Source: Picrophilus oshimae DSM 9789 (lineage in GTDB: Archaea > Thermoplasmatota > Thermoplasmata > Thermoplasmatales > Thermoplasmataceae). Taken from it: 64,000 nucleotides of DNA. The position numbers were made by a program, and so were the translations under genes. Location: positions 1 to 64,000 of the forward strand of contig NZ_FWYE01000005.1 in assembly GCF_900176435.1 (NCBI RefSeq), read 5' to 3'. Positions 26,342 to 32,140 of the stretch are shown in pieces. Numbering within the stretch: the stretch's first letter is position 1; every line of letters starts with the position of its first letter. The notes under the pieces are model-generated. The model was not told the origin of the DNA. It made no database searches and saw only the letters and a list, made by a program, of their open reading frames with translations.

Positions 26342-27454
26342 CTACCTTAAAAGCATCTTTTTAATAATTTCGTAGGCATCATCAACGCTCTCGTTTTTTA
26401 TTGAGGTATAAATATTATATGCAAGCTCGGCCTTTTTATCATCATGGAAGTATCCGTGGAAGTAGTCTATTAATTTTCTCTCTGATTTTACAGGATTTTC
26501 AGGCATGTTTACTGATTTGTTAAAAAGGCATCTTATCTCTGCCTTTTGATTATACATGGCAAGAACCTTCCTTGAGTATTCTTTATCCTCGGTATTTATT
26601 ATCAATGTTATCAGCGGCTTCTTTATGCCGGTTGCATTTTCAAGTGATTTATCAAGATCGATTATCAAATTTATATTATCCGTTTTTATTAAATCCTGGT
26701 ACCTTGTGCTGTTAAGTTTTATCCTGCTTACAGATGCAGTTCCGCTGTTTATATCCACGAGGTTTACAGATTTTCCGTATTTTTTAAAATGATTTAATTC
26801 ATTTGTATCATTTATTTCTGTTGAGCCTGCGTATGAAAAAACAGGCTTTTTATTATCTATTAATTTTGAATCATGTATATGCCCAAAGGCCAGGTATGTA
26901 TAATTTACAGGGAGATCGCTTGAATCAACCTCGCTCTGCTCCTTTATAAAATATGGTGAGACACCCTCATGGGATATTAAAACTGAATTTTTCTCTGATT
27001 CTGCAATAACATCGGCCTTTTTATAAAGCTCAAGAAGCTGCGGTATCCTTAAACCCTTCATGTTTGATATTCCTGATATTATTATTTCCTCATCAAATTT
27101 TTTTCTTACAACATCAAGGTCATCGTAGCCAAGTAAATGAACCCCAAGAAAATCAAAGATCCTGGAAGCGACCTCATCACGGCGCTTTGGCCTGTCGTGA
27201 TCGCCCATTATAAGGTACATATCGATGTTCCTTTCATATAATTTTAGCATGGCCTTTTTAAATTCATTCATTGCCCTGTTTGATGGCAGCCAGGTATCAA
27301 AAAGGTCTCCAGAGTGAACAAAGAAATCAACATGTTCATTTATGCCTATGTCTATTGCCTCGTTGAATGCCTCATAAAAATCGTTTTCACGTTCATCCAT
27401 CATATATTGTTTGTAACCCAGATGTGTATCAGAAAAATGTATAAATCTCACCAT
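26342..27454 (-). CDS. mre11: DNA double-strand break repair nuclease Mre11
   Basis: Metallophosphoesterase nuclease of the Mre11-Rad50 complex, 370 residues. Phosphoesterase motifs appear in order: HFSDTHLG (6-13), HSGDLFDTW (47-55), MGDHDRPKR (a variant of GNHD, near 83-91), ISHEG and FGHIHDS. These provide the two-metal site. The GDHD in place of GNHD is common in archaeal Mre11. The start codon overlaps the herA stop by one base (TAATG), giving coupling. The C-terminal region binds Rad50 coiled-coil bases in relatives. Confidence 0.95.
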   Translation of the reverse strand: MVRFIHFSDTHLGYKQYMMDERENDFYEAFNEAIDIGINEHVDFFVHSGDLFDTWLPSNRAMNEFKKAMLKLYERNIDMYLIMGDHDRPKRRDEVASRIFDFLGVHLLGYDDLDVVRKKFDEEIIISGISNMKGLRIPQLLELYKKADVIAESEKNSVLISHEGVSPYFIKEQSEVDSSDLPVNYTYLAFGHIHDSKLIDNKKPVFSYAGSTEINDTNELNHFKKYGKSVNLVDINSGTASVSRIKLNSTRYQDLIKTDNINLIIDLDKSLENATGIKKPLITLIINTEDKEYSRKVLAMYNQKAEIRCLFNKSVNMPENPVKSERKLIDYFHGYFHDDKKAELAYNIYTSIKNESVDDAYEIIKKMLLR

Positions 27455-28968
27455 TAAAGATCACCCAGAAGCTTTTTATTTCTTTCCTTTATTTTCCTGG
27501 GATCGTTCATTGAATCTATTTCATCGCGGGCCATTCTTAGCAAAGATATTATATCTATATCGGAGCCACCGGCCCTTGTCTCACGGTTTCTTATCTTTAC
27601 AATGCATGGCATCTTTACAAATTCGCCTGTTAGCACTGCCTCGCCTATGTCAAGTGATGGAAGATCCTCTATAATATACTCGGTTATACTCTCACTGCTG
27701 TTTATAACTGCATTTTGATCTGCCGGGTTCGTTATCCTTAGTATAATCTGTGAATTACACTGGCTCAGGACGTCCTGATCTATCTTCCCTGGCCTCTGTG
27801 TTATTACTATTAAAAATATACCAAATTTTCTGCCCTCGGCTGCGATCTTCTTTATTATCTCACCGGTTTTTGTCCTTCCACGTTCCCTTGGGGGCACGAA
27901 CCTGTGAGCCTCCTCAACAACAACAAAGACCGGGTACTTAAAATCATTTGAGAACTTTGCGTCATATACAGTGTTAAGTATGCGCCATGCAAAGTAATCG
28001 GCAAGGTATTCATCAAGGCCTGAAAGATCCAGAATCGAGAGCCTTCCAGGTGATAGATAATCATTGATCCCTGTCGATTTATTTGAAAAGACGCCTTTTA
28101 TTTTTTCAAGATACCTTAAACGGTTTCTTATTTTATTATAGTTTTCTCCAAGGGATTTTGCAGTTTCCATAAAATCATCGTAATCATGCTGGCCCTTCAT
28201 GTTGTCAAAGATATCGTTGACTATGCCCGTTAAATTTGCCCAGGATTCATTTATATCCATTATGCCGCAGAGATCCTCCTGATTAAGATCCTGGAATCTT
28301 ATTGTGAATGTATTGACTATTCCAACCTCGCTGCCGTAGCGGCCAGTGCTCATTGGTGTTCTAAAAACCATGACGTTTTCATTGTATATTTTATCATCAT
28401 GAGTTTTTTTCATGAAAACATAATCCGCATGTGGGTCCAGAACGATTACAGAGACGCCCTTCTTGATTAATTCCTCTATGATAACACCGGCCGTATGGCT
28501 TTTACCAGCGCCTGTCTGTGCAAGTATTGCAACATGCCTTCTCAGGCCATTTATATTTATTGAGACATCAATGTTTGAATCCATTAATTTTCCTATTTTT
28601 AATGACTCCTCATCATTGAATGAAAAGATCCTTGAAAGCGTGTCGCTGTTTGATAGATACACCGGCGTTCCAATATTTATGATCTCCCTGGAGTTTCTAA
28701 CATTATCATTAACGACATGGCCAAGTATCTGAACATGGCATATGTTTGTACTATCATTTATATTATTTTCAATGTACCTCTTCATGCTCTTATAGTCTGT
28801 ATTTAAATCCACCAGCTGGCTTCTTGATTCTATTGATATTATTCTTCCTATGATCTCGCCGTTATTAAAAACAGATACATAATCCCAGCGCCTCACGTTT
28901 TCGCCCGGGTTTAAAACGAAGCTTAAATCATCACCGGAGCTTGAAATAACATAACCAATCTCAGACAT
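27454..28968 (-). CDS. herA: HerA hexameric DNA translocase
   Basis: FtsK-like ATPase that forms a complex with NurA to resect DNA ends together with Mre11-Rad50. The N-terminal HAS-barrel (about 1-90), Walker A AQTGAGKSHT (about 149-158), Walker B VFVVVEEAHRF and the downstream VITQRPGKID are all recognisable. I chose ATG 28968, which overlaps the nurA TGA in ATGTCTGA and begins exactly at the HAS-barrel sequence SEIGYVIS. An earlier in-frame ATG at 29001 would add 11 residues inside nurA. The resulting 504 residues are normal for the family. Confidence 0.94.
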   Translation of the reverse strand: MSEIGYVISSSGDDLSFVLNPGENVRRWDYVSVFNNGEIIGRIISIESRSQLVDLNTDYKSMKRYIENNINDSTNICHVQILGHVVNDNVRNSREIINIGTPVYLSNSDTLSRIFSFNDEESLKIGKLMDSNIDVSININGLRRHVAILAQTGAGKSHTAGVIIEELIKKGVSVIVLDPHADYVFMKKTHDDKIYNENVMVFRTPMSTGRYGSEVGIVNTFTIRFQDLNQEDLCGIMDINESWANLTGIVNDIFDNMKGQHDYDDFMETAKSLGENYNKIRNRLRYLEKIKGVFSNKSTGINDYLSPGRLSILDLSGLDEYLADYFAWRILNTVYDAKFSNDFKYPVFVVVEEAHRFVPPRERGRTKTGEIIKKIAAEGRKFGIFLIVITQRPGKIDQDVLSQCNSQIILRITNPADQNAVINSSESITEYIIEDLPSLDIGEAVLTGEFVKMPCIVKIRNRETRAGGSDIDIISLLRMARDEIDSMNDPRKIKERNKKLLGDL

Positions 28969-29950
28969 GGATTCTTGCACGCCTATCACCCCTGCTCTCA
29001 TAGAATGGTATTCCTGTTAACCTTTCAAATGTACGCATATAAAGGTTTTCAACCTCCTTTTTTCTGAACTTTACCATTCTATCAACGTAGTAAAGCCATA
29101 TATTATAATTCCTGTAACCATTGTATCCGTAGAATATTAAATCAACTATATCATATACACTGGCATTATTGTTAAGAAACCTGTTTGAAACAACGTTTAT
29201 TTTTAATGGTATATCTGTTATTTCAGGTAGTATATCCATTATTGCGTATTTCCCTGAACTTTCTATTACGGGTTCAGTGTACCCCGGTTCCTTTGCAAGT
29301 GATTTTATTATCAAATGATCGCTGGCATTTCTTAATCTTGATTTTTCATCATTGCTTAAACCATTAATAAGAAGGTTTCTAAACGAATTATCTACACTGC
29401 TCTTTGCTATATAAATTAGGTCAATGCCTTTCTCCCTTGCCATTGAGATCATCTCATTCATTGTTGAAAAGTATTCACGCATGAATGATTCATTGCCCGG
29501 TATCTTTAAATCAATGTTAAAATGATTTAGCCTGCTCTTGTATGAACCATCGATAAAGATATAATCGTATCTTTCATTTTCAATGCTTTTTATTACGCAT
29601 TTATGCTCAAGGTGCTCCATTAAAAGTATCTCGAAGTTTCTAAGCTCCATTGGATTTAGATCATAGATGCCAGCAGAAAAGGTCTTTTCAACAAATTTAT
29701 TTGAAAATGAGTATGCCCTTGCCATTATAAAGACCATGCCGCTGTAAAGCTGCCTTGAGAAGATTGAGCTGTCCACGGCAAGTATCCTTTTATTCTTTAG
29801 ATCTTTATTACTCCTATAATAATGAAAGTATTTATCAAAATTTTTTTTGTAAATATTATAATCGTATGAATCACCTGCAATTATTAGGTTTGATCTTATT
29901 TCATCTAAATTTGAATTAATGTAATTAATAAAATCCGTGTATGTTTCCAC
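28961..29950 (-). CDS. nurA: NurA 5'-3' nuclease
   Basis: RNase H-like nuclease paired with HerA for 5'-strand resection. The first acidic motif is AVDSSIFSRQ (about 58-67), and the second is FIDGSYKSR near 151-159. A later DIVDLIFYGYNGYRNY region corresponds to the C-terminal motif. It is first in the nurA-herA-mre11-rad50 operon. 329 residues is within the family range (about 330-450). The ATG at 29950 is followed by no alternative start before the conserved region. Confidence 0.9.
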   Translation of the reverse strand: METYTDFINYINSNLDEIRSNLIIAGDSYDYNIYKKNFDKYFHYYRSNKDLKNKRILAVDSSIFSRQLYSGMVFIMARAYSFSNKFVEKTFSAGIYDLNPMELRNFEILLMEHLEHKCVIKSIENERYDYIFIDGSYKSRLNHFNIDLKIPGNESFMREYFSTMNEMISMAREKGIDLIYIAKSSVDNSFRNLLINGLSNDEKSRLRNASDHLIIKSLAKEPGYTEPVIESSGKYAIMDILPEITDIPLKINVVSNRFLNNNASVYDIVDLIFYGYNGYRNYNIWLYYVDRMVKFRKKEVENLYMRTFERLTGIPFYESRGDRRARIHV

Positions 29951-29983: not shown

Positions 29984-31056
29984 CTATGGTTTTATGGGCA
30001 GCGGTGTGAATGTAATTATAAACATTAGCAGGCAGAAGATGCCTATGAAAACATCGCGCATTTTTATTCTTGCGTAATCATTCAATGCAGGTGGATGGAC
30101 AAGACCAAGAAATATAACGAAAAGAGCCAGAAAGAGCCAGCCAAGATAATTGTATACTATTGCCAGGTAGAAGAGGAAGCCAAGAAAGATGTAATTTAAT
30201 ATATATGCCCTTGACCCAAGGAGACCCCTTACGATGTGACCACCATCAAGCTGCCCTGCGGGTATTAAGTTCATTGCCGTTGCGAAGATACCAACCCAGA
30301 CTGCAAAGACCATTGGAAAAACCGGAACCTTAACAGGCTCAAAAATACCGAAGAGCTTATAGATCAATGGATAATTTAACTGAAATGGTATTACATTGTT
30401 TACAGGCTTTATAACCTTTTCAAAGTACTGTGCAAGAAACATCAATGGTATTGATGCAAGAAAGCCTGCTATTGGGCCTGCAGCACCAATCTCGGTCATG
30501 GCCTTTCTATCCGGTATTGGATCCCTTAAAGAAACAAATGCACCAAAGGTGCCTATAATATATGGAAATGGTATAAAAAATGGCAGTGATGCGTTTACCC
30601 TGTATCTTCTTGCAACAAGATAATGCGCCGTTTCATGTATGCCAAGTATGAACATTAATGGCAATGAGAAGAATACAAAGCCGTACAATAGCTTGTAAAA
30701 CTCATAGTATGGTCCTGGCCTAACAAAGCTTGCTGCGTATATAGATCCGACGTATACTGTCGATAAAAGCGTAAGAACAAGCATTATAATATTAACGTAG
30801 ATGCTTCTATAATTCTCCTTTGGCCTTCTTGTTACCTCTATGTAGTTTTCAGGGCCCTTGATAACAGCAGGTATGTATCCACTTGGAACAAGAATCTTTC
30901 TTATCTCGTCAAAATTTTCATCCAGGAGTGGATTGTCACTCTCAAAGAAATAAAACCTAATGTAAAGCGGGTTAACATCGGTTTCATATGAATTTATATA
31001 TGATCTTACCGTGCTTACAACGTATTCTAAATCATCACTCTGCACTTTTACTTCCA
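29984..31056 (-). CDS. Site-2 protease family membrane metalloprotease (M50)
   Basis: Intramembrane zinc metalloprotease. The zinc motif HETAH (residues 141-145) lies in a hydrophobic helix, and the third ligand is in AGQLDGGHIVRG (about 244-255), matching the N/G-x-x-DG motif of S2P enzymes. About six or seven hydrophobic helices follow an N-terminal soluble region of about 85 residues; no PDZ domain is seen. The ATG at 31056 has AGGTGA at a good distance, whereas an upstream GTG at 31066 would overlap that site. Just before it lies a strongly structured RNA of about 190 nt, starting after its own TATA box, suggesting a regulated leader. Confidence 0.88.
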
Positions 31057-31069
31057 TTGCTTTCACCTT

Positions 31070-31262
31070 TTCCCTGTTTTAACGGAAATTAATCACGTTT
31101 CATAATTTCCTGACCCACAGGGAATTCTTAGCCAGCCGCTGATCGGATTTTCACAGCAGGGTGACACACCATAAACTGAATCCGAGGCCCATTATGGCGT
31201 GGCCATTTATAGGTTCCGTGTCGTCATATGCATTCATAAATCATGCATACTTTCTGCGGAAT
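31070..31262 (-). ncRNA. Highly structured RNA element: candidate cis-regulatory leader or small RNA
   Basis: Read on the minus strand, four helices can be drawn in order. H1: TTCCG/CGGAA (31257-31261 with 31214-31218) enclosing a perfect 7-bp TATGCAT/ATGCATA stem (31243-31249 with 31227-31233). H2: GGCC/GGCC (31201-31204, 31186-31189). H3: CGGATT/AATCCG (31179-31184, 31144-31149) enclosing GGTG/CACC. H4: TTCCCTG/CAGGGAA (31118-31124, 31070-31076) enclosing GGAAATTA/TAATTTCC (31103-31110, 31084-31091). The strand is much richer in G and C than the flanks. H4 ends immediately before the ribosome-binding site of the site-2 protease. I match it to no RNA family that I know. Confidence 0.6.
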
Positions 31263-31282
31263 CATATAATGCATTGAATCAA

Positions 31283-31292
31283 TATTTTTAAA
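31283..31292 (-). promoter_or_regulatory. TATA-like box of the structured RNA
   Basis: TTTAAAAATA on the minus strand is centred about 26 bp before position 31262, where helix H1 of the structured RNA begins. The expected transcription start therefore coincides with the 5' edge of the folded element. Confidence 0.45.
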
Positions 31293-31389: not shown

Positions 31390-31461
31390 GGGCTTGTGGT
31401 CTAGTGGTATGACGTCTCCCTCACACGGAGGAGGTCGCCGGTTCGAGCCCGGCCAGGCCCA
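31390..31461 (+). tRNA. tRNA-Val (anticodon CAC)
   Basis: Acceptor GGGCTTG pairs with CAGGCCC (one G-T pair), anticodon stem TCTCC/GGAGG holds the loop CTCACAC with anticodon CAC, and the T-arm is GCCGG-TTCGAGC-CCGGC. Discriminator A, no encoded CCA, no intron. TTAATATAAAG about 25-30 bp upstream is a likely TATA box. Confidence 0.92.
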
Positions 31462-31633
31462 CTTATATTTATATACACTGGATTCATATTTTATTAAGAT
31501 GTGCTGGAAATTATATTTTCCATTATAATTGTATTTTTATTATATAGATCAAAAATTGACAATAACATTATAATATATTTATCAAGTTCGAAAATTAAAT
31601 TCATGCATGGTTTTTATTTATAATATTCTTTTT
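31462..31633. other. AT-rich intergenic stretch after tRNA-Val
   Basis: No gene is visible. GGAAATTATATTTTCC at about 31506-31521 can form a small hairpin (GGAAA/TTTCC) that may mark the end of the tRNA-Val transcript. The remainder is AT-rich without a clear open frame, up to the inverted-repeat element. Confidence 0.4.
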
Positions 31634-31958
31634 ATAAATAGATAAAACTATGATATCCTGAAATTAGTTCCCATATTTATATTCTTAACATTTAATTTTC
31701 TTGTATATTATAAAAGTGATTTCTATTATATATTGATAATTACATAATTTCCTCTTTTAATTAATAATATAATATTATATTGCTCTTGCATGTGTTATAA
31801 ATTATATATTAACCATATTGCAATATTATGTTTTTATTTATTATTATAAAAATATTATCAATGCCTACTTCAACTGTTTAAATTAGTTTATAGTTCCTAT
31901 ATTTAAGTTGTCTTTAAATAGGAACTAATTTCAGGATAAAACAATAAATAGATAAAAC
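31634..31958. mobile_element. MITE-like element: inverted repeats flanked by 15-bp direct repeats
   Basis: ATCCTGAAATTAGTTCC at 31655-31671 recurs as its exact inverse at 31921-31937 (17 bp). Outside each, after exactly 6 bp, lies the same direct repeat ATAAATAGATAAAAC (31634-31648 and 31944-31958). The right side also carries a hairpin AGTTCCTATATTTAA / TTAAATAGGAACT (about 31891-31933). The interior is very AT-rich and encodes nothing. Terminal inverted repeats plus flanking direct repeats suggest a non-autonomous insertion of about 295 bp. A 15-bp target duplication would be long, so a repeat-derived alternative is possible. No other copy is evident in this window. Confidence 0.5.
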
Positions 31959-31998: not shown

Positions 31999-32140
31999 GG
32001 GAGCATGGGGTAATCAGGCATCCTAGCGGGCTCCAGTCAGTTTGTGATTAGCGAGAGGGTCAACTGATTTCATGATGATTGACTGGAACTATGAAACAGG
32101 AAGAGACCCGTAGATCTGGGTTCAAATCCCAGTGCTCCCA
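31999..32140 (+). tRNA. tRNA-Trp (anticodon CCA) with a 69-nt intron
   Basis: Exons are 31999-32036 and 32106-32140. Acceptor GGGAGCA pairs perfectly with TGCTCCC, the anticodon stem is GCGGG/CCCGT, the loop CTCCAG|A contains anticodon CCA, and the T-arm is CTGGG-TTCAAAT-CCCAG. The intron sits at the canonical position between bases 37 and 38. TTTATATTAAAAAAT at about 31966-31980 is the likely promoter. The intron has box C/D features and is listed separately. Confidence 0.93.
32037..32105 (+). ncRNA. tRNA-Trp intron resembling a box C/D methylation guide RNA
   Basis: Boxes in order: C-like GTGATTA (32044-32050), D' CTGA (32064-32067), perfect C' ATGATGA (32072-32078) and D-like ATGA (32091-32094). 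GTT/AAC (32040-32042 with 32095-32097) can close the kink-turn stem. The guide before D, TGACTGGA (32080-32087), is complementary to TCCAGTCA across the exon-intron junction, and the fifth nucleotide before D (G32086) pairs exactly with C34. The guide before D' contains GGGTC, whose fifth nucleotide (G32059) pairs with C39. This matches the known haloarchaeal tRNA-Trp intron that directs 2'-O-methylation of bases 34 and 39. Confidence 0.7.

Follow-up and report, generated by a model that had tools for sequence, protein, structure and literature searches.

A very probable three-hairpin box H/ACA guide RNA gene, divergently related to HgcG, abuts the ribosome-binding site of an M50 protease gene in Picrophilus oshimae

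What is the folded block that lies directly upstream of a site-2 protease gene in the archaeon Picrophilus oshimae DSM 9789? The block lies on the minus strand of the window, the whole 64,000-nucleotide stretch of contig NZ_FWYE01000005.1 that was analysed, and a preliminary description made from the sequence alone had taken it for an undescribed structured RNA: a riboswitch, a temperature- or acid-responsive leader, or an independent small RNA. We now consider it very likely that positions 31263-31068 (minus strand) are the gene of a three-hairpin box H/ACA guide RNA that is divergently related to HgcG/Pab40/Pf7, and that its product is a guide for 23S rRNA pseudouridylation rather than a regulator of the M50 gene. 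HgcG, identical to Pab40/Pf7, is itself a three-hairpin box H/ACA guide RNA (PMC4652768, PMC2241582).

The perfect helices reported initially are present on the minus strand: TATGCAT/ATGCATA (31249-31243 with 31233-31227), TTCCCTG/CAGGGAA (31124-31118 with 31076-31070) and GGAAATTA/TAATTTCC (31110-31103 with 31091-31084). The four consecutive helices that had been drawn are parts of three H/ACA hairpins, each consisting of a lower and an upper stem. The block is indeed richer in G and C than its surroundings (core G+C 0.42-0.50, upstream flank 0.16-0.17), and its predicted fold (-63.9 kcal/mol) is more stable than those of shuffled sequences (-51.5, sd 4.5; z = -2.8), with 0 of 200 shuffles as stable. 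The TATA-like element TTTAAAAATA (31283-31292, minus strand), a putative promoter, stands about 20 nt ahead of hairpin 1, where an AT-rich TTTAAA/TTATAA box occupies the same position in most of 41 aligned sequences; the guide RNA gene, present in one copy in its own genome, is probably transcribed from TTTAAAAATA.

Several other elements lie on the promoter side of the block. A tRNA-Val(CAC) gene (31390-31462, plus strand) is divergent from the guide RNA gene, and is also found beside the orthologue in seven other scanned loci. A perfect 18-base inverted repeat, TATCCTGAAATTAGTTCC, occurs in the window only at 31654-31671 (plus strand) and 31921-31938 (minus strand), 249 bases apart, and perhaps delimits a small mobile element. 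Another intergenic block rich in G and C (31999-32140, plus strand), missed by both ARAGORN and the default Rfam scan, resembles a tRNA-Trp gene (anticodon CCA) interrupted by an intron of some 65-70 nt, in which box C/D motifs are present (weak sR20 match, 23.4 bits). In other euryarchaea the tRNA-Trp intron is known to carry a C/D guide.

Orthologues of the block, identified by DNA search within the order and extracted with nhmmer, were recovered from most genera of the family to which the window belongs, and forty of them were aligned with the window copy (n = 41). Across this alignment 91.0% of pair cells are paired, compared with 74.6% in shuffles and 30-48% with slid partners; two-sided changes occur in 31 of 37 pairs, and compensated cells number 290 versus 86 in shuffles. 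The initial reading of a real structured RNA is supported by this strong covariation, all seven helices containing pairs with two-sided changes. RNAalifold had paired the two hairpin 2 pockets with each other, and these pairs were dropped, each strand being an invariant guide.

The covariation supports the arrangement of H/ACA units, a lower stem, an internal loop and an upper stem, three times over on the minus strand. Hairpin 1 (31208-31263) comprises a lower stem (31263-31257/31218-31212), a GA stem (31250-31241/31235-31226) with a UGA...UGA K-loop, and an ATA box (31210-31208); hairpin 2 (31126-31203) a lower stem (31203-31196/31137-31131), an upper stem (31184-31179/31149-31144), a K-turn-like element and an AGA box (31128-31126); and hairpin 3 (31068-31124) a lower stem (31124-31118/31076-31070), an upper stem (31110-31103/31091-31084) with a UGA...UGA K-loop, and an AAA box (31070-31068). 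The invariant columns of the alignment are the guide pockets, the K-loops of hairpins 1 and 3, and the spacing to the ANA box; the pocket bases ATGGGC and GATCAG (hairpin 2) and GGGTCA and GTTA (hairpin 3) are invariant in all 41 sequences, and GACGAC (hairpin 1) nearly so. H/ACA rules prescribe a GA stem of 10 layers and 14-15 nt between the closing pair and the ANA box (PMC4652768). The GA stem of hairpin 1 has 8 pairs plus 2 G-A (10 layers), and that of hairpin 3 has 10 layers if its first G-C is open. An ANA box at 14-15 nt is found in 38/41 (hairpin 1), 37/41 (hairpin 2) and 41/41 sequences (hairpin 3), compared with 13% when all columns are averaged, with the register chosen per hairpin for hairpins 2 and 3 and the hairpin 3 count using the 10-layer GA stem. 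These boxes read AAA, ATA or AGA, the literal ACA having been replaced in the window's family. Each hairpin also carries a bipartite pocket around an unpaired U-N that is complementary to rRNA, most weakly in hairpin 1, and the genome encodes Cbf5 (NF003280, 429.8 bits). Each hairpin would be expected to bind L7Ae at its K-loop or K-turn and Cbf5/Nop10/Gar1 at its ANA box; the internal-loop pocket would pair with 23S rRNA, and Cbf5 would then convert one uridine to pseudouridine.

Candidate targets were sought by comparing the pockets with the genome's own 23S and 16S rRNA (positions are given in E. coli numbers). The predicted targets are U1915 in helix 69 for hairpin 3, U2555 (or U2554) in the A-loop for hairpin 2, and U2511 for hairpin 1, where the numbers of pocket-like sites expected in Markov-shuffled rRNA are 0.0005, 0.001 and 0.003, respectively. 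Judged from these complementarities, the RNA probably directs modification of three key ribosomal uridines.

For hairpin 3, the 5' guide GGGTCA (31111-31116, minus strand) forms 6 bp with UGACCC of helix 69 and the 3' guide GTTA (31080-31083, minus strand) forms 4 bp with the UAAC preceding U1915, together fitting UAAC-UA-UGACCC. The 3' guide contributes 4 pairs only, and a permissive score puts another site ahead of that in helix 69, which comes second; the target is settled by two lines of evidence, neither of which was used to choose sites. In family f9 (genomes G100, G071 and G079), a guide reading GAGUCA faces a helix 69 reading UGACUC, as predicted before the rRNA was read, and in every other genome for which guide and helix 69 could both be read (many rRNA genes are missing from draft genomes), GGGUCA faces UGACCC. 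In addition, Pab40 and Afu4 have been reported to make pseudouridine 2016 in vitro, a position that corresponds to 1956 in H. marismortui and 1915 in E. coli (PMC2584109).

For hairpin 2, the 5' guide TAATGGGC (31187-31194, minus strand) forms 8 bp with the A-loop sequence GCCCAUUA and the 3' guide CAGC (31138-31141, minus strand) forms 4 bp with GCUG beside U2554/U2555, so that the pocket fits GCUG-U-UC-GCCCAUUA with a U-U mismatch adjoining the target. A second covariation occurs here, at E. coli 2551, which in the class is a U facing a guide A (guide ACAACCCC being fully paired to A-loop GGGGUUGU) and a C facing a guide G in the window's family (GGGGCUGU with CAGC). In a sister family (L083 in genome G170, and L101) U2555 of the 23S A-loop is replaced by an A, the 5' guide of hairpin 2 seems no longer to match and hairpin 1 is apparently absent, so that target and guide may have been lost together.

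The 3' guide of hairpin 1, GACGACA (31219-31225, minus strand), forms 7 bp with the UGUCGUC that precedes U2525 of the genome's own 23S rRNA (E. coli U2511), fitting UGUCGUC-UG-UU, and GACGAC is kept in nearly all orthologues. Its 5' guide side is weak (2-3 pairs), and under the loosest pattern about 0.1 chance sites are expected in rRNA. The first pocket of class-level HgcG, by which we mean the RNAs of other families of the class (L002-L031), is of the CGAAG/GCAAG type and fits CUUGC-UA-CUUCG, or E. coli 2496. The P. abyssi pseudouridines 2585, 2588 and 2603 can be placed by their spacing at E. coli 2493, 2496 and 2511, the only such placement common to 16 archaeal 23S sequences, and Pab40 has been published as the guide for P. 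abyssi 2588 (PMC6138745). From these pocket sequences, hairpin 1 appears to have switched its target from U2496 to U2511, where the 23S rRNA of the window's family has also changed (GGCUC to GUCUG). In T. kodakarensis the 2511 position (P. abyssi U2603) is reported to be modified by Cbf5 with Gar1 in a guide-free manner, and none of the P. abyssi guides could be assigned to it (PMC6138745). At one locus (L050, genome G282) hairpin 1 has the pocket GAGTGA where GACGAC would be expected, although the 23S target site is unchanged.

The gene downstream is the M50 site-2 protease gene originally proposed (29984-31057, minus strand; Pfam PF02163, E = 2e-21), a neighbour of the RNA and not part of its function; NurA and HerA genes (DNA-end resection; 27454-29950, minus strand) lie 3' of it on the same strand. 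Its ribosome-binding site AGGTGA (31063-31068, minus strand), ahead of the ATG at 31057, does adjoin the last helix and abuts the final bases of the RNA. M50 and the RNA probably share a transcript and, since the RNA end at about 31068 touches AGGTGA, the M50 message probably arises by read-through or by processing. This abutment is, alongside the apparent retargeting of hairpin 1, what is new about the gene. In most genera of the family M50 lies within a few tens of bases 3' of the RNA, at spacings of a few to ~30 nt. In two genera (g2 and g11; L034-L046) the RNA is followed by A+T-rich sequence with no adjoining M50 gene, and their M50 orthologues (69-74% identical) are located elsewhere without the RNA leader, in genome G024 about 281 kb from the RNA. 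Neither at the class-level loci nor in Thermococcus (L085) is this M50 gene adjacent to the RNA. Because the RNA is kept without M50, and M50 without the RNA, the RNA is selected for itself and acts in trans, and its place as an M50 leader in the window is incidental. Together with the identity of its conserved bases as rRNA guides, this bears out the independent small RNA among the options first listed.

A guide function in trans could be combined with a local one, if assembly of the H/ACA particle on the nascent transcript also gated M50 translation or processing wherever the two are fused. In Picrophilus, AGGTGA directly meets the ANA box of hairpin 3 (31070-31063), so that an assembled particle should cover the ribosome-binding site, and L7Ae has been proposed as an archaeal translation regulator (PMC5539422). 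However, the spacing between RNA and M50 varies from a few to ~30 nt among relatives and the link has been lost in two genera, and we consider such dual use unlikely. Equally unlikely, in our estimate, is the joint reading in which HgcG hairpin 1 was retargeted from U2496 to U2511 (guide-made here, guide-free in Thermococcales, with a changed rRNA site) and the RNA is at the same time an M50 leader that couples guide-particle assembly to translation.

A default Rfam scan of the block returned no match, and neither this nor a relaxed scan matched RNase P, SRP or TPP; these identities, which the preliminary description had also failed to recognise, are rejected. With relaxed filters, 401 bases including the block match RF00064 (HgcG) end to end (model positions 1-276) at 32.8 bits (E = 1.4e-7), below the Rfam gathering cut-off of 77 bits, and default scans miss the RNA for this reason; "undescribed" therefore applies to the divergent branch only. 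Of 200 genomes of the class, 81 contain a match to RF00064 with E no higher than 10 and in most cases much lower, with a best score of 78.7 bits and the cut-off exceeded in one genome; this class-wide, strict-filter search misses the window's own copy, so an absent match there means little. Most family-f1 orthologues go unreported even at E 0.05 in a 31-kb RF00064 scan, and the sister family (L083) is intermediate, at 31.7 bits. In the reciprocal search, a hairpin 3 model built solely from family f1 recovers the sister family at significance (L083, E = 0.009) but class-level HgcG only weakly; run against the window's own genome, the hairpin 3 model detected no complete class-type HgcG elsewhere.

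An H/ACA guide RNA that is not descended from HgcG, and that reached the same targets independently, would be consistent with the sub-threshold RF00064 score, the weak reciprocal search and the different hairpin 1 pocket. Such an origin is nevertheless highly improbable given that the number and order of hairpins are identical to those of class-level HgcG, that the hairpin 3 pocket GGGUCAG...GUUA and the hairpin 2 pocket AUGGG(C/U) occupy the same places there, that the sister family scores as an intermediate, and that the hairpin 3 model search found no class-type HgcG elsewhere in the genome. The RNA displays the HgcG trait of three H/ACA hairpins in a row with the third predicted, from its complementarity, to guide U1915; it departs from HgcG in that hairpin 1, with its pocket GACGACA, fits U2511 and not E. 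coli 2496 (P. abyssi 2588). It is best classed as a divergent HgcG orthologue, a new variant and not a plain member, whose descent is argued from architecture, pocket order and intermediates. Least tenable is a cis-acting riboswitch or temperature- or acid-responsive leader of M50, which the position of the RNA directly ahead of the M50 ribosome-binding site, and next to M50 in most loci of the family, had suggested, but which we reject as extremely improbable and, as a general function, refuted: such an element should stay with the gene it regulates, whereas RNA and M50 are separable in g2 and g11 and apart at the class-level loci, and the invariant bases are exact 23S complements that covary with 23S.

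In this archaeal group the HgcG-type RNA is probably what guides formation of U1915, the near-universal pseudouridine of helix 69; its divergence has carried it under the Rfam threshold and so out of reach of standard annotation, and it offers a case in which guide and ribosome visibly change together. The apparent shift of hairpin 1 to U2511 (P. abyssi U2603), a position that Cbf5 modifies without a guide in Thermococcales (PMC6138745), makes the replacement of guide-free by guide-dependent modification, or the reverse, testable, and a guide RNA that abuts the ribosome-binding site of a protein gene raises the question of transcript processing.

Like HgcG/Pab40/Pf7/Tko1 of Thermococcales (RF00064), the RNA consists of three consecutive H/ACA hairpins, and shares with it the hairpin 3 pocket GGGU(C/U)A...GUUA and the predicted target U1915 (P. 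abyssi U2016, PMC2584109). An archaeal-wide DNA pattern search retrieved one true HgcG, from a Thermococcus assembly in which no 23S rRNA was found; its guide reads GGGUUAG. In contrast to Thermococcales HgcG, the window RNA scores 32.8 bits rather than the 194 seen in Thermococcus, carries ANA instead of ACA boxes, has K-loops in place of longer apical stems and a different downstream gene, and fits U2511, not U2496 (P. abyssi U2588), with hairpin 1; its hairpin 2 fits the A-loop, unlike Pab40.2, which has been reported for L1932 (PMC4652768). In Archaeoglobus Afu4 and the two-hairpin Haloferax HP1/HP2 RNA, as predicted here, a hairpin III homologue guides U1915 (PMC2584109, PMC4652768), although the Haloferax RNA lacks hairpin I and its HP1 has been proposed for E. 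coli 2586. Class-level HgcG shares with the window RNA the order of hairpins, the pockets of hairpins 2 and 3 and the complementarity of guide and target, but differs from it in its canonical ACA boxes, a hairpin 1 pocket that is mostly of the 2496 type, and an M50 gene that is not adjacent.
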